A stretch of DNA of 36,703 nt from a virus, in IMG/VR virus record IMGVR_UViG_3300025601_000056, positions 1 to 36,703 of that record; one strand, given 5' to 3'. The notes under the pieces were generated by a model. It was given only the letters and a program-made list of their open reading frames with translations. It made no database searches and was not told the origin of the DNA. The position numbers and the translations under genes are program-made. Below are positions 6,244 through 26,649 of this stretch, in pieces (the stretch's first letter is position 1; every line of letters starts with the position of its first letter).

Positions 6244-7200
6244 CTATTTCACTGGCTGTATGCGCCACACTGCCGCAGACTGTTTGCGTTTAGGTATGGA
6301 TATGTCAGTAAGGCATTGGCATTCTGTGTAGCCGCAGATCACTGGCTTGACCACTTGCTTGTAGCCGTCTCGAATCCATCCTGAGTAGCCGCCTTGTTCG
6401 CAGTTGGCTCTACGGTAACTGCCGTCGAACTGTACAAATGCGGATTTTAGTCCTATGTCGCACTCCCAGCGACCGAAGTTGTTTTCTCTGCGATTGATCA
6501 GTTCCACAGTCCAACTCTTGCCGGGAAATGCCGGTTCGCCCTGACGATCCAGAATGGCAAAGTTTCTGGGAACAATGGGGTCCACCCAAAGATTTCTATA
6601 CACAGCAGGATTGTCCAGGAACCAGCGTTGCTGCTGTTCAGTATAGGTGGGAGTTTGACCCGATCCCCAATCTACTATCATAGTGGGTATAACTGAGACG
6701 TCAGTTTCGTTCAACAGTTGATCGTAGATGATCATGCAGTGATCCCAGTAGTCGGGATCCATCATTAGATTCACCGTGACCTGTTTGACATACTGATTTG
6801 CTTGATTTGCTCGTTCGACCCAACCGTCGTCGTGAAACGCAGGATGATAACTGAGTCCTAGATTTTCTACATCTAGTCCGTCCCAGTATTCTGCCTTACG
6901 AACACCGTTGCTACTGACGCCAGCATAGTGTTTAGGGCTGGCAAATTTTTTAAGTAACTTTGGTAAAAAAGGACTTACTGTAGGCTCGCCCCCTGATATA
7001 ACCAAATGTATCATGGGGTGCTGTTCTAATATGCTGTCGATAAAGTATTCCGCTTCACTCCAGTCGTAGTGATGATTCTTGCCCTCGTGTAGATATTTTG
7101 GGCAATAGCGGCAATGATTTGTACAGATGTTGTTGATTATCCAAGTTAGATAAAAACGTTTGTAGTCACTTACTACTTGGTTGTATGGGCATGGTTGCAT
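6244..7200 (-). CDS. Radical SAM enzyme with SPASM/twitch-like C-terminal cysteines (318 aa)
   Basis: The radical SAM signature CxxxCxxC is C26-TNH-C30-RY-C33, and GGEP (70-73) is the conserved SAM-binding motif. A C-terminal set C247, C267, C289, C294 and C296 resembles an auxiliary Fe-S cluster domain of the SPASM/twitch type, which in known families modifies peptides or proteins (sulfatase maturation, RiPP maturation). No substrate peptide or partner was seen next to it. ATG 7200 has TAAATA exactly 5 nt upstream and no Shine-Dalgarno sequence. It lies between an oxygenase-like gene and a collagen-like fibre, which suggests a post-translational modification role; a nucleotide or cofactor substrate is an alternative. 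Confidence 0.88.
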   Translation of the reverse strand: MQPCPYNQVVSDYKRFYLTWIINNICTNHCRYCPKYLHEGKNHHYDWSEAEYFIDSILEQHPMIHLVISGGEPTVSPFLPKLLKKFASPKHYAGVSSNGVRKAEYWDGLDVENLGLSYHPAFHDDGWVERANQANQYVKQVTVNLMMDPDYWDHCMIIYDQLLNETDVSVIPTMIVDWGSGQTPTYTEQQQRWFLDNPAVYRNLWVDPIVPRNFAILDRQGEPAFPGKSWTVELINRRENNFGRWECDIGLKSAFVQFDGSYRRANCEQGGYSGWIRDGYKQVVKPVICGYTECQCLTDISIPKRKQSAAVWRIQPVK

Positions 7201-7266: not shown

Positions 7267-10200
7267 ATGACAAGCAATATCGACCCAACACAAATTAACC
7301 CAGAGTTTCCTGTATCAGGACAAAATAACAGTTCGCAGGGATTTAGAGACAATTTTCAAGGCACTGTACAAGGCCTAACTGCTGCCCGTGACGAAATTAC
7401 AGGGCTGCAACGTAATGCCACAGTAAAAGGCACTACCAGCACAACTAGAGTAGAAAACGCAGACGACTTTCAAAACTACATGGTAGGTGCAGAACTGCGT
7501 GAAGTACAACTAGCAGATTGGACACAACGCTTGTTCAATCATGGCCCGCAAAGCGGCACAGTTGCTCTAAGTTACTACGAAGCACCGATACATTATGTAG
7601 AAGCGTTTCCCAACGTTACCTTAGGATTAAAACAGTTTCCAGTAGACCAATATGCCACAATGCGTGTGTATGTTTCAGTTCCGTCTACTGCTACTGTTGT
7701 GACATTCAGCGATGTCAGCAGTATTACCAACGTGACTAGATTGGTAAACTTCAACAGCGTCAGCGGCGAAATGACGTTTGAGACCAGCGGCGTATTTGGT
7801 ATTGAAATTTCAAGCCGCACTGGTGTTGATTTTGAATTCTTTGACCTTGACCGTAGGAAAATTGATGCTAGTGTGCAAACAGTTAGTGCTGTGGGTATCA
7901 GCGGTAACTTCAACGATCTAAACAGTATTCCAACTGCAAGCGAATCCCTAAAAGGTATCATGCAAGTTGGAGACGGCTTATTGGTAAATGCCGGTGTTGT
8001 CAGTGTTGATACTGCCACAATACAGGTTGCGGTTTCTACAGCAACCACAGCATCAGTAGGTGTTATTCAAGTTGGAAATGGGTTGACTATTACTCCAGCA
8101 GGATTACTAAGTGCTAATCAGTATACTTTACCCACTGCTACAACTGCTACACTAGGCGGTGTTATTATCGGCGCTGGCCTTGCAGTAGATTCCACAGGAA
8201 CATTGAGTGTAGTAGACGGTATTACAGGTGCTACAGGTCTAATCGGTGCTACTGGTCCAACGGGTGCTACTGGAGTGCAGGGCCCAGACGGATTAGGTGT
8301 CGGAGTTTATTCAAACAGTTCTATTACAATTGGCACTGGTGCAAAAGTGTTTGTTTTAGAAAGTTTAGCCGTTTGGTCAATTGGACAGCGAGTTCGTGCT
8401 AAAAACTATGCCAGCGGTATTCCTGTTAACGAATGGTTAGAAGGACAAATTACTGCATATGACACTACTGGTTCTACAGTTACAGTATATGTTGACCGTA
8501 CACAGGGTACTGCTACAACATTAACAACTTGGTTTGTTAACGTAGCAGGCGAAGTTGGTTCAACTGGACCACAAGGCGCCACAGGCGGACCTGGTGCAAC
8601 AGGCAGCGGTGCTACTGGTGCTACTGGTGAAAGAGGACCGTTGGGTATTCAAGGATATCAAGGTGCTACTGGTGCAGGTGTACAAGGTACTACAGGTGCA
8701 ACTGGTCCTCAAGGCCCCATTGGCGGACCTGGATCAACCGGATCAACTGGTCCTGTAGGAGCAACTGGTTTAATTGGATCTACAGGTCCACAAGGAGAAA
8801 CAGGCGATCCAGGCGGAGCAACTGGTCCACAAGGCGCTACTGGTGCGGCTGGCGCCACAGGTCCTGCCGGACCAGATGGTGCTACTGGTGCAGGTTCAAC
8901 AGGTGCTACTGGTTTACCGGGTGCTACAGGTGCGCAAGGACCTGCAGGGAATGTTGGTGCTACAGGTGCAGGTGCTACTGGCGCTACGGGAGAAGCAGGA
9001 CCTGCAGGTGCAACAGGACTATATGTAACTAGTGCTACTATTAGTGGCACTAATCTAGTTATTATTTTAAATGATTCGACTGAAATTGATGCAGGCCCTG
9101 TTTCAGGTGCTACAGGAGCAGATGGTGGCATAGGTGCTACAGGAGCAGATGGTGGCATAGGTATCGACGGCGCTACTGGTGCTACTGGCCCACAAGGTGC
9201 AATTGGTGCTACTGGCAGTTACGGGTCAACAGGCGCCACTGGTCCACAAGGAGAAATAGGTGCCACCGGCGCAGACTCAATAGTTCCTGGCACAACTGGT
9301 GCTACTGGACCAGCAGGTTCCACAGGACCTAGTGGAGTTGGATCAACTGGTGCAGACGGTGCTACAGGCGCTACAGGTGTTCAAGGCGCAACTGGTCCTG
9401 CAGGCGCAACTGGCGCTGGCGCAACTGGTGCTATTGGCAATGATGGTGCCACTGGAGCACAAGGTGCCACAGGATTATACGTTACTACTGCTACTGTAAC
9501 CGGAACAAATTTGTTAATTACATTAAATGATAGTAGTGAAATTAATGCCGGTAATATTGTTGGTCCTACAGGCGCTACTGGTGCGCAAGGAAATCAAGGC
9601 AATGACGGAGCAACGGGTGTACAAGGTGCAACTGGCGAAGGCGCTACTGGTGCAACAGGTCCTACAGGTGCTACTGGGACAATCGGAGTTGATGGTGCAA
9701 CAGGTGCAACAGGACCTTCAGGTGCAACAGGTGCAGACTCTACGGTGCCAGGGTCTACTGGTGTACAAGGTGCAACAGGTCCAATAGGACCACTCGGACC
9801 AGAAGGTGCTACTGGTGCAACTGGTGCTACAGGAGAAACTGGCGCAACCGGTGTACAAGGTCCGCAAGGTATTGATGGAAGTGCTGCTGCCCAAGGTGCT
9901 ACAGGCGCCACTGGACTATATATTACAACTGCTTCAATAACAGGAACAGAATTGTTGTTAGTATTAAATGATGCTAGCGAAATTAACGTTGGATCAGTAA
10001 TTGGTGCTACTGGACTTACAGGCTCAGAAGGTGCAACTGGTGCTGGTGTACAAGGTACCACAGGTGCTACTGGTCCAACAGGTGCAACAGGTGCATTAGG
10101 AACTACAGGTGCTACTGGTCCGCAAGGTGCAACTGGACCTACAGGTGATTTAGGCGCAACCGGTGCTACTGGTCAGGGTGCTACAGGGGCGCAAGGAAAT

Positions 10201-11577
10201 CCGGGAGCAGAAGGTGCTACAGGCGCAACAGGTGCTACTGGACCTGCAGGTGCTACTGGAGTTGGCGCCACAGGTGCTACAGGTCCTCAAGGACAATATG
10301 TTACTACTGCCAGTGTTACAGGTACTACATTAATACTTACATTAAATGATAGTAGTACAGTAGTAGTTGATGGATCTATACAAGGTGCGACTGGGCCAAT
10401 TGGACCTAATGGTGGAAATGGCGGAACAGGCGCAACAGGCGCAACAGGTGCTGACGGAGCGACTGGTCCAATAGGCGCTACCGGCGTCGAAGGTCCAGTA
10501 GGTCCGACAGGTCCGGCACTACTTGCTTTTAGTAGTTCGACTAATACTGTTAGCACAGGAACTAAAACATTTACAGATTTATACGATGTTAACGGTACTC
10601 CAAATGTATCGGGATACACCGCAGGTATGCGAATTAGAGCAGGAGCAATTAATTCTCAACCATTTAGTTATATGGACGGACAAGTCGAAAGTGTAAATTT
10701 AGCCACTACGTCGTTGATTTTTATATCGGATTACGCTCAAGGAACGCTAGGACTTTCGAGTAGTTCTTGGGCAATTAGCATAGCAGGCGAAAACGGACTT
10801 ATAGGCCAGCCAGGTCTCGGGTATGTTCTTTGGGCATATGATAATCCTGTTAGTTTAGCAACTATAGGTTCTGATACTGAGGTACAGTTTGCCGTTGAAA
10901 GTGAAGAGCATGCATATACTACTGGGCAAAGAATAAGAGCAATTGTCAAAGAACGTGCATTTTTAAGTTACTTGGAAGGAACATTAGTTGCAAGAACAGG
11001 TACAGACTGGACCATATTAATTGACGAGTATTTTTTAAGTCCAGACGAAGATATTGTTACATTTAGCACTTGGACCTTTGCAGTTGCAGGCAGTAGACCT
11101 ACAAGTACTGCTACTCAATTATATTTGTCAGGTGTTACTATTGCAACAAATACTTTTAGTGGAACGCTAGTAGTTGCAGGTGGAGTAGGAATTGGAGAAA
11201 ATTTATTTGTTAAGAGTTTACAAGGCGTCGGAAACCGAGCAGTGTATTCAAGCCAAGAGGGCGAAGTTACTAATAGTTCCTCAGATGCAAATTTAAAAAC
11301 AAATGTACATCCGATTGATCAAGGACTTACTGCTACACTTGCATTAAATTCAATTAAGTTTAATTGGATAGATACTGAAAGATTTGGTTCACAGACTGAA
11401 ATCGGCTTTCTTGCACAACAAGTACAGCAAGTTGTTCCTGAAGTAGTCGGAACAAATAGTGACGGCACATTAAGTGTGGACTATCCAAAACTAACTGCGG
11501 TGTTAACAAAGTCTATTCAAGAACTGTCTGCTAAAGTTGAAGAATTAGAAGCAAGATTATCTGCCGCTGGTTTATGA
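7267..11577 (+). CDS. Collagen-like tail fibre/virion protein with S74 chaperone domain (1436 aa)
   Basis: The N-terminus ([20 protein letters not shown], then a coiled region) looks like a virion-attachment domain of aquatic T4-like phages. Residues about 320-1080 are mainly Gly-X-Y repeats dominated by GAT, GPQ and GPT, which should form a triple helix. Four related beta inserts of the pattern [10 protein letters not shown]...LNDSSEI interrupt it. A second module type occurs three times (from about 350, 1085 and 1200), with pattern GxRIRA...WxxxVAG. The C-terminus is a Peptidase_S74 intramolecular chaperone: SDANLKTN starts at S1339, the expected self-cleavage site, and a coiled coil ([20 protein letters not shown]) closes the trimer. 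It is probably a trimeric host-recognition fibre. It was not matched to T4 gp37 or gp12. Confidence 0.88.
8220..10520 (+). repeat. Degenerate tandem repeat encoding Gly-Ala-Thr collagen triplets
   Basis: The DNA repeats GGTGCTACTGGT-like units with many synonymous changes (GGCGCAACA, GGTGCTACA), keeping the protein repeat while lowering DNA identity. The array is broken by four copies of a beta insert at about 9019, 9474, 9913 and 10294. Confidence 0.9.
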
Positions 11578-11630: not shown

Positions 11631-12398
11631 ATGAACTCATTCTCACATTCAGGAACATTCGGCGATTTAATTTACTCCCTTGCTATGGTCAAGCACTTAG
11701 GTGGAGGAGATTTTTATTTGCGTCTTAACGATATGGATCGTATGGCACACCGTGTATTAGGTGCACCAAATGCTGGCGATCACAAGGGCGAGATGACCGA
11801 AGCCCAGTTCGAAGCACTCCGACCTTTAATAGAAAGTCTTCCTTATATCAACAGTTTTAAACCATACAACGGTGAAGAAATTACACACGACCTAGGCGAG
11901 TGTGGTTTTGAAATTGTTAAACAAAACGGTAACTACATGTATTCGTATGCTACCGGATTAGGTCTCGACTTTTATAAACATTATAAAGAATTCATGTATC
12001 AGCCTTGGTTAGAAATCAAAGACGCTATTCGTATTCCTGGTAAGCCAATTGTGGTCAATCGTGTTAATAGACACCTGTATGGATGTGATCCCGATGCTAA
12101 AGCATGGAAAGATTTCTTTAAAAAAGGACTGTCGGACATGGCAGTATATGTAGGGAAAGAAAGTGAACATGCATGGTTTGAGCAAAGCCTAGGTATTAAA
12201 ATTCAGCATTATAAAACTGAAAATATTTTAGAAGTTGCACAAGTGATTGCAGGCGCAGAACAATTTATAGGTAGTCAAAGCATGTGCCTAAGTATTGCAT
12301 TAGGCTTAGGAAAAACTACACTATGCGAATGCCGCAAAGATTTACCTTTACAAAGAAATGAATGTTATTTTATCAGACCCAATGTCCACTACTTCTAA
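11631..12398 (+). CDS. GT9-like (heptosyltransferase-type) glycosyltransferase, copy 1 (255 aa)
   Basis: The N-terminus FSHSGTFGDLIYSLAMVKHL matches the start of GT-B heptosyltransferase-like enzymes, where GD(L/V)xxSL binds the acceptor side. The C-terminal FIGSQSMCLSIALGLGK resembles the nucleotide-sugar-binding motif of GT9 (FIGxDSGxxHxAxxLGxP). At 255 aa it is shorter than the usual ~350. It is paralogous along its whole length to the next gene. There is no room for a Shine-Dalgarno sequence between the predicted transcription start and ATG. Likely roles are glycosylation of phage DNA, of virion proteins (perhaps the fibre) or of host surface sugars. Confidence 0.78.
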   Translation: MNSFSHSGTFGDLIYSLAMVKHLGGGDFYLRLNDMDRMAHRVLGAPNAGDHKGEMTEAQFEALRPLIESLPYINSFKPYNGEEITHDLGECGFEIVKQNGNYMYSYATGLGLDFYKHYKEFMYQPWLEIKDAIRIPGKPIVVNRVNRHLYGCDPDAKAWKDFFKKGLSDMAVYVGKESEHAWFEQSLGIKIQHYKTENILEVAQVIAGAEQFIGSQSMCLSIALGLGKTTLCECRKDLPLQRNECYFIRPNVHYF

Positions 12399-13179
12399 TC
12401 TATCTTTTACCCACTCAGGCACATTAGGTGATGTGCTTACTAGTTTATCCGTTGTTAAATTGTTAGGCGGCGGCGATTATTATCTTCGTCTTAACAACAT
12501 GGATAATGTTGTTAAACAGTACCTCGGCTGGCCTGGCGCTGGTATTCACAGCGGTCGTATGACACAACAAGACTTTGATATGTTAGAATCTTTAATGACT
12601 AGCCAAAGTTATATTAAAAATTTTCAAGTATGGCAAGGACAAGAAGTTACTAACGTATTTGAAGAACAATGTCTTCATCATCAAGCAAGTGGTATTTGGC
12701 CTAGGAACTTCAGTAATCAATATGCATCTAGCCAAGGTGTTGATATGGAGGCAAACTTTGAAGCACTTCAGCAACGTTCCTGGTTAGAGTGCAAAGACCC
12801 CATTCGCATTCCGGGACGCCCTATTGTTATTAGTCGTAATGAGAAATATTTAGACGGCGCACCTATCTTTAATCCGCAATGGAAAGAATGGATTGACATG
12901 GGGCTAGCAGATCAATGTGTGTTTGTAGGACACGAAGGCGAACACGCTTGGTTTGAAGATTTATACAAGTGTGAAGTCGATTACTATAACACAGAAGACC
13001 TGCTACACTTATCAAGAGTATTAGCAGGTTGTGATTTGTTTATAGGTAATCAAAGCATGCCAGGAACTATGGCAAGTATTTGTTTGGGCAAAACTAGTCG
13101 AATTGAATTGCGTAAGAACGAAACTTACAACAATAACGAATTTATATATCCTTACAGAATCAATATTTCTTATTTTTAA
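12382..13179 (+). CDS. GT9-like glycosyltransferase, copy 2 (265 aa)
   Basis: The motifs LSFTHSGTLGDVLTSLSVVK and FIGNQSMPGTMASICLGK align with those of the preceding gene, so the pair arose by tandem duplication and then diverged strongly. ATG 12382 was chosen because the N-terminus then best matches its paralogue; an in-frame ATG at 12358 would overlap more. The start overlaps the first gene by 17 nt and the stop overlaps the convergent hydrolase gene by 4 nt. The two enzymes may add successive sugars or act on different acceptors. Confidence 0.78.
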   Translation: MSTTSNLSFTHSGTLGDVLTSLSVVKLLGGGDYYLRLNNMDNVVKQYLGWPGAGIHSGRMTQQDFDMLESLMTSQSYIKNFQVWQGQEVTNVFEEQCLHHQASGIWPRNFSNQYASSQGVDMEANFEALQQRSWLECKDPIRIPGRPIVISRNEKYLDGAPIFNPQWKEWIDMGLADQCVFVGHEGEHAWFEDLYKCEVDYYNTEDLLHLSRVLAGCDLFIGNQSMPGTMASICLGKTSRIELRKNETYNNNEFIYPYRINISYF

Positions 13180-15225: not shown

Positions 15226-15786
15226 ATGATTGAAAAGAAAGACCTAACCGGACAAATTATTGCATCTCGCCCAAATAACGCAGATACTTATTTTTCCAAA
15301 TCTGTTATCATAGTAGGAAAACACAGTCCGACAGGATCGTGGGGTCTCGTAGTCAATAAACCTACCGAAAAAATTACATTAGATCATATAATGCGGCAAA
15401 CTGGAATACTTTCTAAAAAAGAAGATAAGGTCTATATAGGAGGTCCGGTAGACACTAATAGAGTATATATTGTACATACCTTAGATTGGACTGCACCTAC
15501 TACAATGCAAATTACCAAAGATATAGGTGTTACTACTGACATATCTATACTGGCCGCAATTGCAGGTAACGAAGGGCCTGCATTATTTAGAACATGCTTG
15601 GGTATATGCCAATGGGCACCTAAACAACTTGACGGAGAATATTTTGGTCAAGAGCCATGGAGTCCTGCCAATAGTTGGGTAGATGCTCCTGCTACAATAG
15701 AGGCAGTGTTTCATTTAAACGAAGAAGATCAATGGATACACGGAATTGATTATATTACCAAAAATAATATATCTAATTGGTTTTAG
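15226..15786 (+). CDS. AlgH/YqgE (UPF0301, DUF179) family protein (186 aa)
   Basis: The protein opens LTGQIIASRPNNADTYFSKS, then SVIIVGKHSPTGSWGLVVNK and a GGPVD...VYIVHT segment. These match the pattern of bacterial AlgH/YqgE proteins (short N-terminal strand, SVI...H...G.GLVxNxP, GGPV). The full family length of about 185 aa is kept. The biochemical role of the bacterial family is not settled. Here it is an isolated + strand gene inside a - strand block. Its stop overlaps the gp41 stop by 4 nt. The late-type core 5 nt before ATG suggests late expression. Confidence 0.85.
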   Translation: MIEKKDLTGQIIASRPNNADTYFSKSVIIVGKHSPTGSWGLVVNKPTEKITLDHIMRQTGILSKKEDKVYIGGPVDTNRVYIVHTLDWTAPTTMQITKDIGVTTDISILAAIAGNEGPALFRTCLGICQWAPKQLDGEYFGQEPWSPANSWVDAPATIEAVFHLNEEDQWIHGIDYITKNNISNWF

Positions 15787-17231
15787 TCTTTTTCGGGACT
15801 AAACGCATTTAACATATCTCTAGCATTTCTTGTAGGCATGCTCGATTTTGCAATCTTAGAAACTGGCATTCCTTTTGTAGGATCTATTTCGCCTGTTTCG
15901 GGATCTACGTTAGTACTAGTTACTAAACTTGTTTTCTTTAACCCGTCAATTAGCGCACTACTTGCTGCACTACGCTGACTTGCAAAACTTTGCTCTTCTG
16001 CTTCTTCACCTAGGTCATTAATGCGTAATGTATCAATGTTAAATTCCAAATCAACTTTTTGACCAACACCGCTTGATGACCGAGTTTTCATAAACTGAAT
16101 TTGATAGCGGCCTCGCTCACGCATTGCTCGGCTTGTAAAGATACCAATAACGTTGTCTGCTGTTTGAATCTTACTCAGGCCCCCGCTGATGTGACTGTGA
16201 TCAAATTCAACTTCCTCAACTGCTGAACGATTTAACTGTGCCGCAGTGACTACTACTGACTGCGTTTCCATAGCAAAGTTACGAAGTTCTTCTGATACAT
16301 ATTTGTCTTTAACAAACAGATCACTTGGACTGACTTTAACAGATAGCGGCATCATAAGGTCTAAGTAGTCTACTAAAATAATGTCAGGTTTTTTTCCTGT
16401 TTTAACCTGAAATTCTTTTAAATATGACCGCAAATCGTTACAATTCTTACCTGAAGGCATGTACTTTATCTGCATTCCACCGGCACGTCGACCTGTCATC
16501 TTAACCTTCATTTCTACATCATCAATGTTGCGGAAAATTTCTTTGGCTGCAATATCGGTAATCATCGAGTCAATCCGCATACTTACTAACTCTTCCGAAA
16601 GTTCGAATGTAAAGTAGACAACATTTAAACCGGCAAGTGAAAAGTTTACACCTAAGTTTGCTAAGAACAATGACTTGCCGCCACCTGACCCGGCAGCAAA
16701 AATATTAAGTTCGCCTCTTTTAAAACCACCGTATAACTTTCTATCAATGCTTGGCCAGCCAGTTGAAATCTGTCCATTATTGTCTTTCATTCGCAACAAT
16801 CGAGCACGAGGATCATCCCAGTAATCAGTTCCCATATCTCTGCTCAAACTAATTTGAATAGCGTCTTTAATCAGTTTCTCAACCGGATTGTACTCACCTT
16901 TTTCCAACATATCTGCTGATTTAAGAATCGCTCTCTCAAGGCCTTTATGCCTGCTAAAAGTTTCAAATTCATTTAGCAACCATTCATAGTTTTCCTTTGC
17001 AAGCGCAACAGATTCGAACGAATTACTAGTAGATGCATTAACAATGGTAACTTCTGGCATTACCTTGTAATCGTCAACATATTTGGTAATAAAGGTTGCC
17101 GCATCTTGATAACGCTTGTCAAAGTTTTCCGGATCGAAAATGTTTTGACAGCGTACAAAAGTTTCTGCATCTCCTAAAAACATTTCGAGATACAGTTTTT
17201 GCATCTCTGCATTATAGTTTGGTTTATTCAT
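15783..17231 (-). CDS. gp41: Replicative DNA helicase, T4 gp41-like (DnaB family, 482 aa)
   Basis: Walker A AAGSGGGKS at residues about 179-187, Walker B IILVDYLDL (D288), and an N-terminal helical region of about 150 residues give the DnaB-family layout of T4 gp41. The enzyme unwinds DNA 5'-3' on the lagging strand as a hexamer and works with the primase encoded directly upstream. The start overlaps the gp61 stop by 8 nt, so helicase and primase are translationally coupled. The C-terminus ends in an acidic, partly disordered tail. Confidence 0.93.
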   Translation of the reverse strand: MNKPNYNAEMQKLYLEMFLGDAETFVRCQNIFDPENFDKRYQDAATFITKYVDDYKVMPEVTIVNASTSNSFESVALAKENYEWLLNEFETFSRHKGLERAILKSADMLEKGEYNPVEKLIKDAIQISLSRDMGTDYWDDPRARLLRMKDNNGQISTGWPSIDRKLYGGFKRGELNIFAAGSGGGKSLFLANLGVNFSLAGLNVVYFTFELSEELVSMRIDSMITDIAAKEIFRNIDDVEMKVKMTGRRAGGMQIKYMPSGKNCNDLRSYLKEFQVKTGKKPDIILVDYLDLMMPLSVKVSPSDLFVKDKYVSEELRNFAMETQSVVVTAAQLNRSAVEEVEFDHSHISGGLSKIQTADNVIGIFTSRAMRERGRYQIQFMKTRSSSGVGQKVDLEFNIDTLRINDLGEEAEEQSFASQRSAASSALIDGLKKTSLVTSTNVDPETGEIDPTKGMPVSKIAKSSMPTRNARDMLNAFSPEKD

Positions 17232-18216
17232 CTAAGTTTTCTAGTTTTTTCTTTAGTAGTTGTATTTTTATCTTGTTCGTTTCTTTGTAGTTAATAATTG
17301 TAAGTAGTGTATATAGCCTACCATATTTCTTAACTGCATCGGCACAATCTTTTATATCTGATTCCCACGGCGGAATACTAACCGCCCATTCATTTTCTAA
17401 TGCCGCTGTTATTATTTTTGCCCCGGGTTTATCTCTGTCCGGTACTACAATAACTGTTTTACCCAACATTTTTATTCTTGCTATTTGTGTTGCATTAGGT
17501 TCGTTATGCATAATTGCCACTCCGTCTACTGCAATGGCATCAAACTGTCCTTCTACTACTAATACATATTCTCTATCATCTTGTTGCGGATCTACGTTGA
17601 ATACATATCCGGCCTGTGCATCAGTTAGGTATTTTGGTTTACCTTCAGTTATCTTTCTTCCAGTCCATCCTACTGTCTCTTGATTGCAGTAGAAGGGCAA
17701 AAGTAATCGATCTCTATAACCATTTTCTGGACTCCAATGCCAGTTGTACCAATCTAATTCCATACCTCGATTAACTATATAATCAGCACAGGCAATAACA
17801 TCCGAATTAGGATCTTCTTCTAACCATTCAATTATCGGCTTGCTATCTTTAGGAAGCAATCTTGGCTCTAGGTTAAAATTTATAACTGGGGTTTTTACTA
17901 CCTCTGCGTCTTCTTTAGATCGCAATGCCTCTAGATTTAATTTGGTTATTTCGTCATTGGCCATACCCATCCAACGAAACAGGTCTTTTGTATTCTTACT
18001 TAGTAGTCTGCCCGGGCTCCATCCTGCTTTAAAATTACAATTGAAGCAGTGATATTGAAATCCTTCTTCGTTAAAAAGAACCCCGCCACGTTTTCTAGTG
18101 TCTGTTTTTTCGCCTCTATTGTGACAGCAGACTGCATTAAAACTTGTCCAACCGCTAGGAGTAGCCTTTCTTTTACCAGGTAAGAAAGTTTGTACAGTTG
18201 ATTGTATGAGGTTCAT
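17224..18216 (-). CDS. gp61: DNA primase, T4 gp61-like (330 aa)
   Basis: The N-terminal zinc-ribbon has C30/C31-H32 and C57-x2-C60 (YHCFNCNFKAGW). The Toprim catalytic motifs are E222 in VVEGQFDAIAV and D260-R-D262 in VVPDRDKPG. This is the size and domain order of gp61-type primases, which make RNA primers with gp41. AAAATA, one mismatch from the late core, lies 5 nt before the ATG, and no Shine-Dalgarno sequence is visible. Confidence 0.92.
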   Translation of the reverse strand: MNLIQSTVQTFLPGKRKATPSGWTSFNAVCCHNRGEKTDTRKRGGVLFNEEGFQYHCFNCNFKAGWSPGRLLSKNTKDLFRWMGMANDEITKLNLEALRSKEDAEVVKTPVINFNLEPRLLPKDSKPIIEWLEEDPNSDVIACADYIVNRGMELDWYNWHWSPENGYRDRLLLPFYCNQETVGWTGRKITEGKPKYLTDAQAGYVFNVDPQQDDREYVLVVEGQFDAIAVDGVAIMHNEPNATQIARIKMLGKTVIVVPDRDKPGAKIITAALENEWAVSIPPWESDIKDCADAVKKYGRLYTLLTIINYKETNKIKIQLLKKKLENLDE

Positions 18217-19342: not shown

Positions 19343-19726
19343 ATGACCAGTAAGGACGACTTTCAGAAAAACTTTCCGTTTATAACCGGTGTAAAAACAT
19401 CGGTTAACGAATATATCGGAATAGTAATCAACTACGACCTCAATGTTACCAGCATCTATAGTTATGCTGATATACGTTCTGAGGAAGAAAGAAAATTATT
19501 TCTAGAATTAGGAGAAACATGGTGGTGGGAATCCAATAGAAAAATTCCAATCAACATATTCTTAAAACAGGATATGATAGACTTTAGACCATATGTTAAA
19601 ACATTTAACAGTAAAGATGTTGAAATAATATTTGGACCAATTGTAAATTTAGGTGAAATTGCAGAAAAACGAGTTAAACGTAAAAGCATTCAACTGGTTA
19701 GAAACGTTAAGAAAAACCGTAACTAA
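19343..19726 (+). CDS. Conserved hypothetical basic protein (127 aa)
   Basis: The product contains NEYIGIVINYDLNVTSIYSY, LELGETWWWESNRKIPINIF and KDVEIIFGPIVNL, and ends with a strongly basic tail (KRVKRKSIQLVRNVKKNRN) that could bind nucleic acid. I recall similar proteins in T4-like phages next to replication genes, with no known role. It is a lone + strand gene with an exact TATAAATA upstream. Its last 20 nt overlap the 3' end of the convergent mini-DnaE gene. Confidence 0.75.
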   Translation: MTSKDDFQKNFPFITGVKTSVNEYIGIVINYDLNVTSIYSYADIRSEEERKLFLELGETWWWESNRKIPINIFLKQDMIDFRPYVKTFNSKDVEIIFGPIVNLGEIAEKRVKRKSIQLVRNVKKNRN

Positions 19727-20294
19727 TATTTTCACATAGTAAATTTAGTTGTACCACAATTACATGAGCATACGCAACAGCATGAGCCTTTTTAAAGAAA
19801 TAAGCATCTTCTGTTTTAACCCATATCTCATTTTCAATAGCATCGAAACCTTTTTCGTTGCATACTGGGATGAGATGTTTCTTACCAGGCCGGAGGAGAG
19901 CAAGAAACATGGCTAACTGCTCAATGCTACGAGGTTTAAGTTTAGCAATCATATTATGATATCCGTTAATGTGAAACATCTGATCGCATACCGCAGAATC
20001 TTCTAATAGATCCCATAGCGGTTCAATTTTTAACAACTGTTCAAGTTGTTCCTCGTTTTTTATTCCTTGATAAGCAGATACATTTAAAAAGTCTATTTTA
20101 AAATATCCTCTATCTTCTGCTTTCTTATACTCAATTGCAGATAGGCCAGTTAATGGATTATACGGAATAACGTGACAATATACGCCAGTGTTGTGCTTTT
20201 TAAAATCTCCGTTCTCGGCACGAGATGCAGTAATGTGAGTTAATTTATCTAATGCTAGTTGTCTATTAGCAAAGTCTAAGTCAATATCAGGCAA
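19707..20294 (-). CDS. Minimal DnaE (DNA polymerase III alpha)-like protein (195 aa)
   Basis: Four motifs occur in the DnaE order: PDIDLDF at the N-terminus (D5 and D7 match the catalytic pair of PD(F)D(I)DF), YFKIDFL with D68 (the third catalytic Asp, as in KFDFLGL), KLKPRSIEQLAMFLALLRPG (120-137), and FKKAHAVAYAHVIVVQ (167-182, matching KSHAAAYA). Full DnaE is over 1000 aa, so the PHP, tau-binding and DNA-binding domains are missing. The start is TTG 20294 after AGGGAGATAGGAA; no ATG lies before the first motif. It overlaps the upstream gene by 8 nt. It may be a polymerase accessory or a decoy/regulator, since T4-like phages normally replicate with the B-family gp43. Confidence 0.75.
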   Translation of the reverse strand: MPDIDLDFANRQLALDKLTHITASRAENGDFKKHNTGVYCHVIPYNPLTGLSAIEYKKAEDRGYFKIDFLNVSAYQGIKNEEQLEQLLKIEPLWDLLEDSAVCDQMFHINGYHNMIAKLKPRSIEQLAMFLALLRPGKKHLIPVCNEKGFDAIENEIWVKTEDAYFFKKAHAVAYAHVIVVQLNLLCENISYGFS

Positions 20295-20982
20295 TTCCTA
20301 TCTCCCTACATACTTCTTTAACCAATGCAACATCAGCAGGAGTTTCTTTAAATTTCTTTGACCAAAACCCAAAATCTAAAATTTTATCAACTATTTCCAA
20401 TTGTTCGTCGCTAAACTTTCTCAATAACTCAACGCCTTCTGAACAGTTAAGAATTAACCACGGTGAAAGTTTTCCATCTCGAATATGATATACTGCACGA
20501 TTAACACTTACATATCTAAAGTAATGTGTATACTCTGCATTTTGTTCTTCAGCCCATTCCATCATATATTGCAAACTACGTTGTACTGCACTTTCGGCAG
20601 GTTCTATTTTTACAAGATCCGCTAGATACTTGTCGTATAATTCATCTCGACACCAGTGATCTAATTTAACTCCGCTTTTAATCACCCAATCAATAAATCG
20701 TTCAGGGTATAACGGATTAACATTATTGATAAAACTGCCAAATTTTACAAATGCATTATAGTAACTGCTTTTACAAAAATCAGAATAAGACTTTTGTTTT
20801 TTGGCATTCTGTGTTAGTTGATAAAATCTGTTGTATGTAAAAAATCCTACCTGAACTCGCTTTTCTTCTTTCTGTAATACTCTACGTTTTTGCTCGCACA
20901 TGTGAGCAATTAGCGTTTTTTCTTTCATAAACGCCTTACCGCAATGTACACAGTTAAAAGGTTGTTCTTCTAGTTTAATCAC
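20287..20982 (-). CDS. Zinc-finger protein of the replication operon (231 aa)
   Basis: The N-terminus FNCVHCGKAFMKEKTLIAHM has C11, C14, H27 and C29, a C2HC finger. The rest is helical, with AESAVQRSLQYMMEWAEEQN and SPWLILNCSEGVELLRKFSD. The start is GTG 20982, which overlaps the preceding stop (GTGA); no ATG fits before the finger. I recall a conserved family of unknown role in aquatic T4-like phages. Its coupling to the mini-DnaE gene downstream suggests that the two proteins act together. Confidence 0.75.
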   Translation of the reverse strand: MIKLEEQPFNCVHCGKAFMKEKTLIAHMCEQKRRVLQKEEKRVQVGFFTYNRFYQLTQNAKKQKSYSDFCKSSYYNAFVKFGSFINNVNPLYPERFIDWVIKSGVKLDHWCRDELYDKYLADLVKIEPAESAVQRSLQYMMEWAEEQNAEYTHYFRYVSVNRAVYHIRDGKLSPWLILNCSEGVELLRKFSDEQLEIVDKILDFGFWSKKFKETPADVALVKEVCREIGIA

Positions 20983-21743: not shown

Positions 21744-22247
21744 TTACCAACACAGGCCGTAATCAACTAATTCACTTTGCCTACTAACTTCTTTTACAAA
21801 ATATGCACACACTGGTTTAGGATCATTGCTTAACGGAGTGCAAAGCAATTGACCTGGCTTCATTTTAGGAAAATACCATTTAACATCTTGATAGACATCA
21901 ACGATATCAACATCAAAAAATTCTGGTCTAAAACTACTTAAAGGATTAAATGTAAAAGTTCTAAAACCTCTATCATTTAAACTTGTCAGTGGAAGAATTT
22001 CCATTGAAGGGCCTTCAGGATCTCCTACAATAGTGCACCAATCAAGAGGCATATTAACTCTGTAGGGACCTATTTGTAATACTGCTGCCGGAGCAGTAAA
22101 ACTTTCTAAGAAAATTAACGGAATATAAAAATAATCAGGATTCGATGGATCACTATTGTCCATTACTGAAAATCTAAGGTCGTCTTCTATTTCATCTGGA
22201 AGGTCATTGAGGTGATAAATCTTATTATCAAGTGTTAATATTTGCAT
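21744..22247 (-). CDS. Conserved hypothetical replication-operon protein (167 aa)
   Basis: The sequence is mixed alpha/beta with an acidic N-terminus and conserved-looking patches PLDWCTIVGDPEGPSMEILP, FRTFTFNPLSSFRPEFFDVD and KWYFPKMKPGQLLCTPLS. No catalytic motif was recognised. I recall related proteins beside uvsW in aquatic T4-like phages. Start ATG overlaps the uvsW stop (TAATG). Confidence 0.75.
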   Translation of the reverse strand: MQILTLDNKIYHLNDLPDEIEDDLRFSVMDNSDPSNPDYFYIPLIFLESFTAPAAVLQIGPYRVNMPLDWCTIVGDPEGPSMEILPLTSLNDRGFRTFTFNPLSSFRPEFFDVDIVDVYQDVKWYFPKMKPGQLLCTPLSNDPKPVCAYFVKEVSRQSELVDYGLCW

Positions 22248-23704
22248 TAGTATTTTACCTTTTCTACTGTGAATGGATAATGTGCTTCTTTGTAGAAACG
22301 TTTTCTCTCTGTTAAATGTTTTTTAGCGTATTTGCTACTGGCAGTTAAATCCCAAATTTGCACGAAGTCTTTGTCTTCTGCTTTTCTAATACCTCGCCCA
22401 ATACTTTGTATAACTCGGACAAAGCTCTTTCCGGGCTCCAAAAGAACCAGATTAAAAATACGAGGGATATTAATACCCACAGCGGCCACACCATAAGTCG
22501 CCACAATAATCTTGTTAGTAGAAGTTTTAATTTCATCGTATTCTTCTTTTCTGTCTTTAGTTTTTACTTCGCCTGAAATAAACACACTGTCTGGAATCTC
22601 ATTTATTATAAACTTTCCTGACTCTATTCTGTCAACCAAAACGAGTGTATTTCCAGTTTCTGCAATACCTGACACTAGTTTACTAATCCACTCCATGCGT
22701 GTGCTATCAGTAACTAGGTATTTTAATTCGCCTGGATAACTTTCAAACTCTTTCCATTCCTGAGTTTGAATAATGTTAACATGGCATTGACTCAATACTC
22801 CTTTTTCCTGCAATTCGTACGCCGCTACTCGATGCACCACTTCGCCTAATGCAGACTTGATGTTTAGAAATTCAATGTCCTCTTTTGGTACGGTGCCGGT
22901 TAGGCCCCATCGGATAGGAGCATTGCTCATATTTTGAGTCAGTAACTTTTTAAGTACATCTGCTTTGGCCATGTGTACTTCGTCTACCATTACGGTACTC
23001 ACACCATCTAAAAATTCTGCCAAAGTCAGTAAGTCATTTTCGGTGGAGTTTTTTGATTTCTTATCTAAAATATTTAAACTTTGCCATGTGCAGATAGTAT
23101 GAGTTTTATTGAGGTCTTTTCTATCTCCGTAGTATACACCTACATCAAGTTGACAGTTAATAAAATCTTCTTCTGTCTGTTCAACAAGACTTTTGTTAGG
23201 TACAATTGTAATTGTACGACCGTATTTTTCCACAATTTTTGCCAATGTTGCAGTTATAATTGTCTTACCAAAACCTGTAGCAATTTCCTGAATGCATTGA
23301 GGATTCTCAAGGAACTTGTTAACAACTTCTACCTGGTCGTCACGTAGTCTAATCTTTTCTCCAGCAAATCGATGCCCTTCTGGCCATGTTTGATTTCCCC
23401 AAAAATCTTCTTCAACTTTTTCAAATTCTAACGGCGTGGATTTTCGGTAATCTTCAAGTGTAGGATCGTAACCCATGCGAACAAGTTCTTCAATTACCTC
23501 AGGTAATAGACTCATGTAGGTGGTACCGCCAAGTCCGAAGAAACTTGTGCAACCGTCCCACCTGCCTAATTTGTACGCAGGCAAGTATCTGGCTTTTTGA
23601 TCAAAATATTTGAATTTTTTAACCAACGCTTTACGAGTTTCAAGATCGAGATTTTCAATCTTTACGTTTACTTCGTCTTTGATTACAATTTTGCAAAAAC
23701 TCAA
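22247..23704 (-). CDS. uvsW: UvsW-like SF2 DNA helicase (485 aa)
   Basis: An N-terminal domain of about 100 residues ending KLGRWDG matches the UvsW N-domain (YxxGxWDG). Helicase motifs follow: ATGFGKT (142-148), DEVH (241-244), GLTGT (267-271), and QSIGRGIRK (motif VI). UvsW unwinds R-loops and branched recombination intermediates and moves T4 from origin-dependent to recombination-dependent replication. The start is TTG 23704, which overlaps the preceding stop (TTGA). The N-domain alignment supports this start, since the next Met is 63 residues further in. Confidence 0.93.
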   Translation of the reverse strand: MSFCKIVIKDEVNVKIENLDLETRKALVKKFKYFDQKARYLPAYKLGRWDGCTSFFGLGGTTYMSLLPEVIEELVRMGYDPTLEDYRKSTPLEFEKVEEDFWGNQTWPEGHRFAGEKIRLRDDQVEVVNKFLENPQCIQEIATGFGKTIITATLAKIVEKYGRTITIVPNKSLVEQTEEDFINCQLDVGVYYGDRKDLNKTHTICTWQSLNILDKKSKNSTENDLLTLAEFLDGVSTVMVDEVHMAKADVLKKLLTQNMSNAPIRWGLTGTVPKEDIEFLNIKSALGEVVHRVAAYELQEKGVLSQCHVNIIQTQEWKEFESYPGELKYLVTDSTRMEWISKLVSGIAETGNTLVLVDRIESGKFIINEIPDSVFISGEVKTKDRKEEYDEIKTSTNKIIVATYGVAAVGINIPRIFNLVLLEPGKSFVRVIQSIGRGIRKAEDKDFVQIWDLTASSKYAKKHLTERKRFYKEAHYPFTVEKVKY

Positions 23705-25346: not shown

Positions 25347-25594
25347 TAGTATTCCTCGTTATCTTCGTCTTCAAACTCTGGTTCTGGATCATCCCACTCT
25401 GCTGCTTGTGATACTACAGATCTGATAGCAACATCAAGTGCATTGTCATAACCGATATAACTTTCCAGTTCAGCAATTTCAATTTCGTGATTTAATAAAA
25501 AATCAACATATTGATGTGCAGCAGTTTCTTTATTTTTTTCTGGAATATATTCTTTAAATGTATCCCAAATTTCCATAGTTAAACTTTCATCCAT
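25346..25594 (-). CDS. Small acidic protein between uvsX and uvsY (82 aa)
   Basis: The protein is very acidic, with the C-terminus EWDDPEPEFEDEDNEEY and a helical body (ETAAHQYVDFLLNHEIEIAE). It is coupled to uvsX and uvsY on both sides by TAATG overlaps. The acidic tail could mimic ssDNA or contact gp32/UvsX, but this is inference. The gene seems to be a regular part of this gene order in related phages. Confidence 0.78.
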   Translation of the reverse strand: MDESLTMEIWDTFKEYIPEKNKETAAHQYVDFLLNHEIEIAELESYIGYDNALDVAIRSVVSQAAEWDDPEPEFEDEDNEEY

Positions 25595-26649
25595 TATACT
25601 TCTTCCTCAGTTACAGTTTTAGCAAGGACGGGCAAAGAATCTTCACTCCACTCGCCCATAATAATTTTAAGGTTGTCTTCAGTCCATCCTTTACGGAAGT
25701 AAGAATGAATTTCACCAGATACCTTACTTATATATTGTAACTTATTTCCTGATTTTGTCAAGACTCCCATCTTTTCAAACATGTCTAAAAGACCGCTTGT
25801 GGCCGCCATACCAGTCGAGTATGGAATCTTAACCTGCACACTTTCAAAAGGTTTTGCATATCGAGTTTTCATGATCTTGCAAGCAGATCGAATACCTAAA
25901 ACATCGCTTACTTTATTGCCGTCCTCGTCCTCTTTGAGTTTGAGTTTTTTCATAGCAACGACAATACTTGATGCATAAACAAAGCCTTGACCGCCAGAAA
26001 TTTTGTCATCTGGATCAAACATATCCTGTGACGCATAAGTGTGGTTAGTACACACCATGCCCACATTGTAAGAACCAAACATATTGACACAGTTACGAAC
26101 AAGTGATGTTAGTGCTTTAGGTTTACGGCCCATATCACCTTTCATTTCACCCGCTTGAAACTGATTAACATCAGTAGGAGTTAACAACATGCCTAGTGAA
26201 TCAATAACAAACAAAACTTTTGGACGCTCGTCCTCTGGCATTGTTTTGTACTCTTTCATAAACTCTGAAATAGTTTTTGCTACATCATCAATCATAGCTA
26301 TGTTCAACTTTAGGAGTTTTTCATCCGAAGTATTAACGCCTAAATCTTCTAGCCACTTTTGATCAAGTGCATTTTCACTGTCAATCAGTACAACATAAAT
26401 GTCTTGTTCTTGTGCTGCTTTAATAATGTTACCTGAGCAGATATATGACTTACCTGCACCAGATTCACCGGCAAACACAGTTACCTTACCCATCGGAACT
26501 CCGCGATGGAAGTCGCCGCTGATTAGATAGTTTAGAGCATAATTGCCAGTACTAATCCAATCAGTCGGGTCGTTGAAGCCAATACCTAAGCCGTCAATAG
26601 ACTTAGTAATTGACTTTCTAAATTTAGAAATATCAAATGCTTTTCCCAT
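25594..26649 (-). CDS. uvsX: UvsX recombinase (RecA/Rad51 family, 351 aa)
   Basis: Walker A GESGAGKS at 61-68, Walker B KVLFVIDSLGML (D150), and the DNA-binding loop region with GGQGFVYASSIVVAMKKLKL identify a UvsX/RecA recombinase of normal length. It forms filaments on ssDNA for strand exchange and recombination-dependent replication. ATG 26649 follows AGGAGATT. It lies 14 nt after gp32 and starts the chain of coupled genes. Confidence 0.95.
   Translation of the reverse strand: MGKAFDISKFRKSITKSIDGLGIGFNDPTDWISTGNYALNYLISGDFHRGVPMGKVTVFAGESGAGKSYICSGNIIKAAQEQDIYVVLIDSENALDQKWLEDLGVNTSDEKLLKLNIAMIDDVAKTISEFMKEYKTMPEDERPKVLFVIDSLGMLLTPTDVNQFQAGEMKGDMGRKPKALTSLVRNCVNMFGSYNVGMVCTNHTYASQDMFDPDDKISGGQGFVYASSIVVAMKKLKLKEDEDGNKVSDVLGIRSACKIMKTRYAKPFESVQVKIPYSTGMAATSGLLDMFEKMGVLTKSGNKLQYISKVSGEIHSYFRKGWTEDNLKIIMGEWSEDSLPVLAKTVTEEEV

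Follow-up and report, generated by a model that had tools for sequence, protein, structure and literature searches.

The 195-aa protein encoded on the minus strand of the window (the whole stretch of 36.7 kb that was analyzed) is quite probably the C-terminal half of a two-gene minimal C-family DNA polymerase, which is predicted to be active and would most likely serve in gap filling, repair or translesion synthesis. The two halves (hereafter C half and N half) are homologous to DnaE, are separated at a fixed split point, co-occur in the same phages, conserve their key residues and show synteny. The features of the window that are relevant here are the following:

19707–20294, minus strand: C half of the split minimal C-family DNA polymerase (PHROG 11778), 195 aa, TTG start; from the PHROG match, homologue conservation and hhalign
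20280–20288, minus strand: codons D3-I4-D5 of PDIDLDF, equivalent to D401-x-D403 of Escherichia coli DnaE; from the alignment with homologues and with E. coli
20091–20093, minus strand: codon D68 (in KIDFL), equivalent to E. coli DnaE D555; from the alignment and hhalign
20287–20982, minus strand: 231-aa protein with an N-terminal zinc finger (PHROG 11058), overlapping the C half by 8 nt; from the PHROG match and the locus survey
19343–19726, plus strand: 127-aa convergent gene (PHROG 11637) just downstream of the C half, context; from the PHROG match
17224–18216, minus strand: DNA primase in a T4 gp61-like position, context; from the same-strand replication neighborhood
15783–17231, minus strand: DnaB-like replicative helicase (gp41), context
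22247–23704, minus strand: UvsW-type helicase, context; from position and synteny
25594–26649, minus strand: UvsX recombinase, context; 59–68% identical to UvsX of split-polymerase jumbo phages

The C-half ORF agrees with what an earlier note on this DNA had described, including its 195 aa, its TTG start and its 8-nt overlap (20287–20294) with the zinc-finger gene upstream. TTG is the sole possible start, because the reading frame opens just one codon earlier, and relatives have an ATG at this position (MPDIDLDF). The motifs noted before are also in place and in the order of DnaE: PDIDLDF at residues 2–8, KIDFL at 66–70, LALLRPG at 131–137 and KKAHAVAYA at 168–176.

Profile comparisons substantiated the homology to DnaE that had been claimed for this protein. 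The C half matched the profile of PHROG 11778, annotated as 'DNA polymerase', with E = 3.1e-63, and PHROG 405, a DNA polymerase family of 1190 positions, with E = 2.1e-7. Alignment of the C-half family to bacterial DnaE with hhalign gave P = 96.6% and E = 7e-10, pairing KKHNTGVY with E. coli GKHAGGVV (H511) and KIDFL with KFDFL (D555), and continuing to RPG. A search of the PDB with the C-half profile retrieved DnaE (5lew, E = 2.3e-4), and with the single C-half sequence it returned only noise, so that profiles were required. Judged by these profiles, the homology of the C half is far above chance level, and it covers the palm and fingers of the C-family catalytic core.

The motif PDFDVDF of E. 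coli DnaE occupies residues 400–406 and, therefore, the catalytic residues D401, D403 and D555 correspond to D3, D5 and D68 of the C half. The earlier note was thus right that the three catalytic aspartates are kept, and right about D68, but its D5 and D7 are displaced by one aspartate relative to D3 and D5; D7 is the third aspartate of the motif, equivalent to E. coli D405, and lies outside the catalytic three. Its proposed survey of relatives revealed no loss, since D3, D5, D7 and D68 are each present in 65 of 65 distinct homologues, in which H34, G37, K66, R135, P136, K138, H171 and Y175 are also invariant. The catalytic aspartates, K66, R135 and H171, together with GRGSS of the N half, are kept in phages and environmental sequences down to 34–47% identity. 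Pairwise pN/pS values of the C half were 0.22–0.35, and dN/dS was about 0.1 where dS was unsaturated, indicating purifying selection.

A search with PF07733, the Pfam model of the DnaE palm, found in all 11 isolate genomes examined, those of jumbo phages of about 285–490 kb, a second small gene of about 170–185 aa, located elsewhere in the genome. This N-half gene (PHROG 11127) carries GRGS and ends just short of the point in DnaE where the C half starts. In phage Phosso, the N half ends with GVGRGSSVASYVLFLIGIHRVNSITYELDFDEFLN followed directly by the stop codon, matching a 35-residue stretch of E. coli DnaE; after the equivalent stretch the E. coli protein continues as PERVSM-PDFDVDF, and the window protein and its homologues begin at PDIDLDF. 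The N half aligns to residues 322–393 of E. coli DnaE, and its profile alignment likewise reaches residue 393, with the C-half profile beginning at residue 399. One alignment extended over E. coli 209–393 and was considered as a remnant of the PHP domain, but it was unsupported by a broader alignment or by the first 100 aa of the N half, which, tested alone, had no PHP or DnaE homology. Searching viral contigs with a single N-half sequence gave no match, and searching with an N-half alignment retrieved more than 590 stretches. Among 80 environmental N-half loci the ORF stops 33–39 residues past the start of GRGS, with the residue count of locus L157 taken from an earlier chance GRG. None of these 80 loci reads into a C half (PDxDxDF), and an N-half extension was found upstream of none of the C halves. 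The GS motif (GRGS) of the pol-beta-like palm is hence absent from the chain of the C half and is present only when both halves are taken together. Since half of the palm, including GRGS, is encoded by the second gene, the C half is not a polymerase by itself and the earlier idea of a stand-alone tiny polymerase is right only in part. The statement that the protein lacks every other domain is correct for the 195-aa gene, but relatives encode the half of the palm that it lacks in a gene of its own.

Using tblastn, we found the C-half family in 63 phage records, including RaK2, 121Q, PBECO4, CBB, PA5oct, XacN1, Atu_ph07, SCTP-2, Vibrio 2.275.O and Phosso; a few partial records aside, these are jumbo genomes of about 284–490 kb, and the closest isolate homologue of the window C half is 47% identical. 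The N half was also matched in 59 of the 60 C-half records listed, the exception being a partial record of 109 kb. The N half also led to environmental contigs of 190 kb or more, nine of which contained both halves and five the N half only. For these five, which include contigs of 359 kb and 289 kb, loss of the C half was considered; neither UvsX nor the zinc-finger gene was detectable in any of them, however, so that the C segment is probably missing from the record. The same pattern of co-occurrence is seen in phage contigs binned into bacterial metagenome bins (MAGs), and clostridial matches in the genome scan proved to be ordinary full-length DnaE. Contigs with the gene content of jumbo phages (loci L291, L302, L300 and L297) were binned in MAGs labelled Neomarinimicrobiota, Methylophilaceae and Rickettsiales; from such contigs, the polymerase halves would be wrongly credited to the host.

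A 328-kb environmental contig (G009) shares the gene order of the window, with SSB, UvsX, UvsY, UvsW, the zinc-finger gene, the C half, the convergent gene and primase, and additionally carries an N half and a B-family polymerase. Given this synteny, the window most likely derives from the genome of a jumbo phage of the split-polymerase group; among UvsX proteins, that of the window is most similar to the ones of Phosso, XbC2 and Atu_ph07. The 36.7-kb fragment has no B-family polymerase on it, and its own N half was not found in 17 related contigs; the window and its near relatives, all under 85 kb, do not reach that gene. Elsewhere in the window, positions 7267–11577 encode a tail-fibre-like protein of 1436 aa that contains long collagen-like Gly-x-x repeats (GATG/GPQG) and whose end resembles an intramolecular chaperone; positions 11631–13179 contain a neighboring pair of overlapping genes (255 and 273 aa) resembling tandem paralogues, with FSHSGTFGD or FTHSGTLGD near their starts; and positions 6244–7200 encode a 318-aa protein with a CTNHCRYC motif that, by eye, is putatively radical-SAM-like.

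Single-chain AlphaFold2 models reached a pLDDT of 91 for the N half and of 74 overall for the C half, with about 90 in the fingers and about 55 in the palm part; such uncertainty would be expected if the palm were completed only on pairing with the N half. In Foldseek comparisons against the PDB, all of the top 16 matches of the N half and the top 11 of the C half were C-family polymerases, in line with the fold that the earlier note anticipated. The best probabilities were 1.00 (N half) and 0.95 (C half), and no E-value was below 0.001 (best 0.0084 and 0.054, respectively), so the fold argument is built on rank and probability together with the sequence profiles. Neither the length nor the alignment of the C half leaves room for the PHP domain, the thumb or the C-terminal clamp- and tau-binding regions. 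It lacks most of the piece between PDxDxDF and H511 that houses the thumb in E. coli DnaE. The spacing D403–D555 is 152 residues in E. coli versus 63 (D5–D68) in the C half. Additionally, the stretch R639–H760 is reduced from 121 to 36 residues. A polymerase with shortened fingers and no thumb may bind DNA weakly.

As the earlier note had remarked, a C-family palm is unexpected beside a B-family polymerase. A B-family gene is present in all 11 isolate genomes tested, and was found in seven large environmental contigs. These B-family polymerases retain SLYPS and mostly also YxDTD; the two motifs are divided over two ORFs in Atu_ph07, and YxDTD was not seen in the SCTP-2 enzyme. Their C-termini are mostly xxLFx-type tails, which resemble the clamp-binding motif of T4. 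A comparable tail was sought on the C halves and was absent except in PA5oct, which ends in DPFKLFS; a general clamp-binding tail on the C halves was thus rejected. In PA5oct (L281, 216500–223500), the B-family polymerase is divided into ORFs of 825 and 379 aa, and the same stretch contains another ORF of 565 aa, possibly a homing endonuclease insertion; the B-family polymerase of Atu_ph07 (L283, 210500–215500) is likewise in two ORFs (578 and 418 aa).

The C half sits in a cluster with UvsX, UvsW, primase and helicase, and the N half lies near the gp44 clamp loader. In 91 of 98 loci, the zinc-finger gene (PHROG 11058) lies at most 3.7 kb upstream of the C half; next to the C half of XacN1 or RAS14, however, it was not found, and it is therefore not an obligatory linked partner; the 231-aa protein, proposed before as a partner, is thus a common neighbor and not a required one. 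In 97 loci, the C half is followed downstream by the PHROG 11637 gene in opposite orientation, mostly with the two genes abutting or slightly overlapping.

We propose that the C half supplies the metal-binding strands of the palm (D3, D5 and D68) and a shortened fingers domain, while the N half, encoded tens to hundreds of kb away, would contribute the rest of the palm, including the GRGS loop for the dNTP triphosphate. By associating, the two would reconstitute a single palm with predicted catalytic competence, in an enzyme without PHP domain, thumb or C-terminal clamp/tau-binding region. Bulk replication would be done by the B-family polymerase with its T4-like clamp-binding tail, and the split enzyme would act as a distributive, non-clamp-tethered polymerase for gap filling, repair or translesion synthesis in recombination-dependent replication. 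The clamp-type tails of the B-family enzymes, their absence from the C halves other than that of PA5oct and the gene neighborhoods lead us to favor such a distributive enzyme, with repair or gap filling as its task and a replicase of the B family at its side.

The missing thumb, the shortened fingers, the lack of a clamp-binding tail and the presence of a B-family replicase would also suit a pair that keeps the palm fold as an inactive structural or regulatory factor, for instance an accessory of the B-family polymerase. We consider this unlikely, because an inactive factor would be expected to have lost some of the aspartates, K66, R135, H171 or the N-half GRGSS, which are invariant over the whole range of identities examined. 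From the linkage in 91 of 98 loci, it could also be imagined that the zinc-finger protein grips DNA in place of the thumb and the clamp-binding regions, as part of a multi-protein phage polymerase; the lineage of XacN1 and RAS14, whose C half has no such gene next to it, contradicts this reading, which seems improbable to us.

Much less can be said for the two proposals of the earlier note. That the 195-aa protein is on its own a tiny polymerase or nucleotidyltransferase would be in keeping with its three metal-binding aspartates and with its well-modeled fingers region; nevertheless, its palm is modeled poorly alone and the N half well, and in all of the complete relatives checked it is the N-half gene that contains the GRGS loop for dNTP binding, making this very improbable. 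A relic of DnaE, or a decoy for the host clamp or tau, is suggested by the mere fragment of DnaE that is left. Strong purifying selection on an invariant active site, and conservation across jumbo-phage genera, speak against a relic, and a decoy would lack the very regions of DnaE that bind clamp and tau; we give hardly any credence to either.

This kind of enzyme is already known, and priority belongs to Iyer et al. (2021, Viruses 13:63, PMC7824862), who described the split minimal Pol III alpha of group 2.2 jumbo phages. Theirs is the same family, with an NTP-binding N half and a Mg2+- and template-binding C half in distant genes and an accompanying B-family polymerase; the window differs in being a new environmental sequence from an uncultivated member, with the N half off the fragment. 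These authors also proposed the split enzyme as a model of ancestral Pol III, which our data neither support nor exclude. In the text of PMC7824862 that was searched there is no mention of the zinc-finger neighbor PHROG 11058, and among the open-licence papers searched we found no experimental work on the split polymerase.

Compared with E. coli DnaE, the split enzyme has PDxDxDF, KxDFL, RPG and KxHxxxYA in the same order and is alignable by profile, but it is devoid of PHP, thumb, OB, clamp- and tau-binding regions, and its catalytic core is spread over two genes. The B-family polymerase T4 gp43 has a homologue in the split-polymerase phages, presumably their replicase, but is unrelated in fold and motifs to the split enzyme and bears a C-terminal clamp-binding tail that is mostly missing from the C halves.

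An active pair would be, to our knowledge, the smallest C-family polymerase, with about 370 aa in two chains versus 1160 in E. coli. It would then test whether palm and fingers alone are sufficient for a polymerase of this family, and would raise the question of why these phages retain a second, unrelated polymerase beside their B-family replicase.
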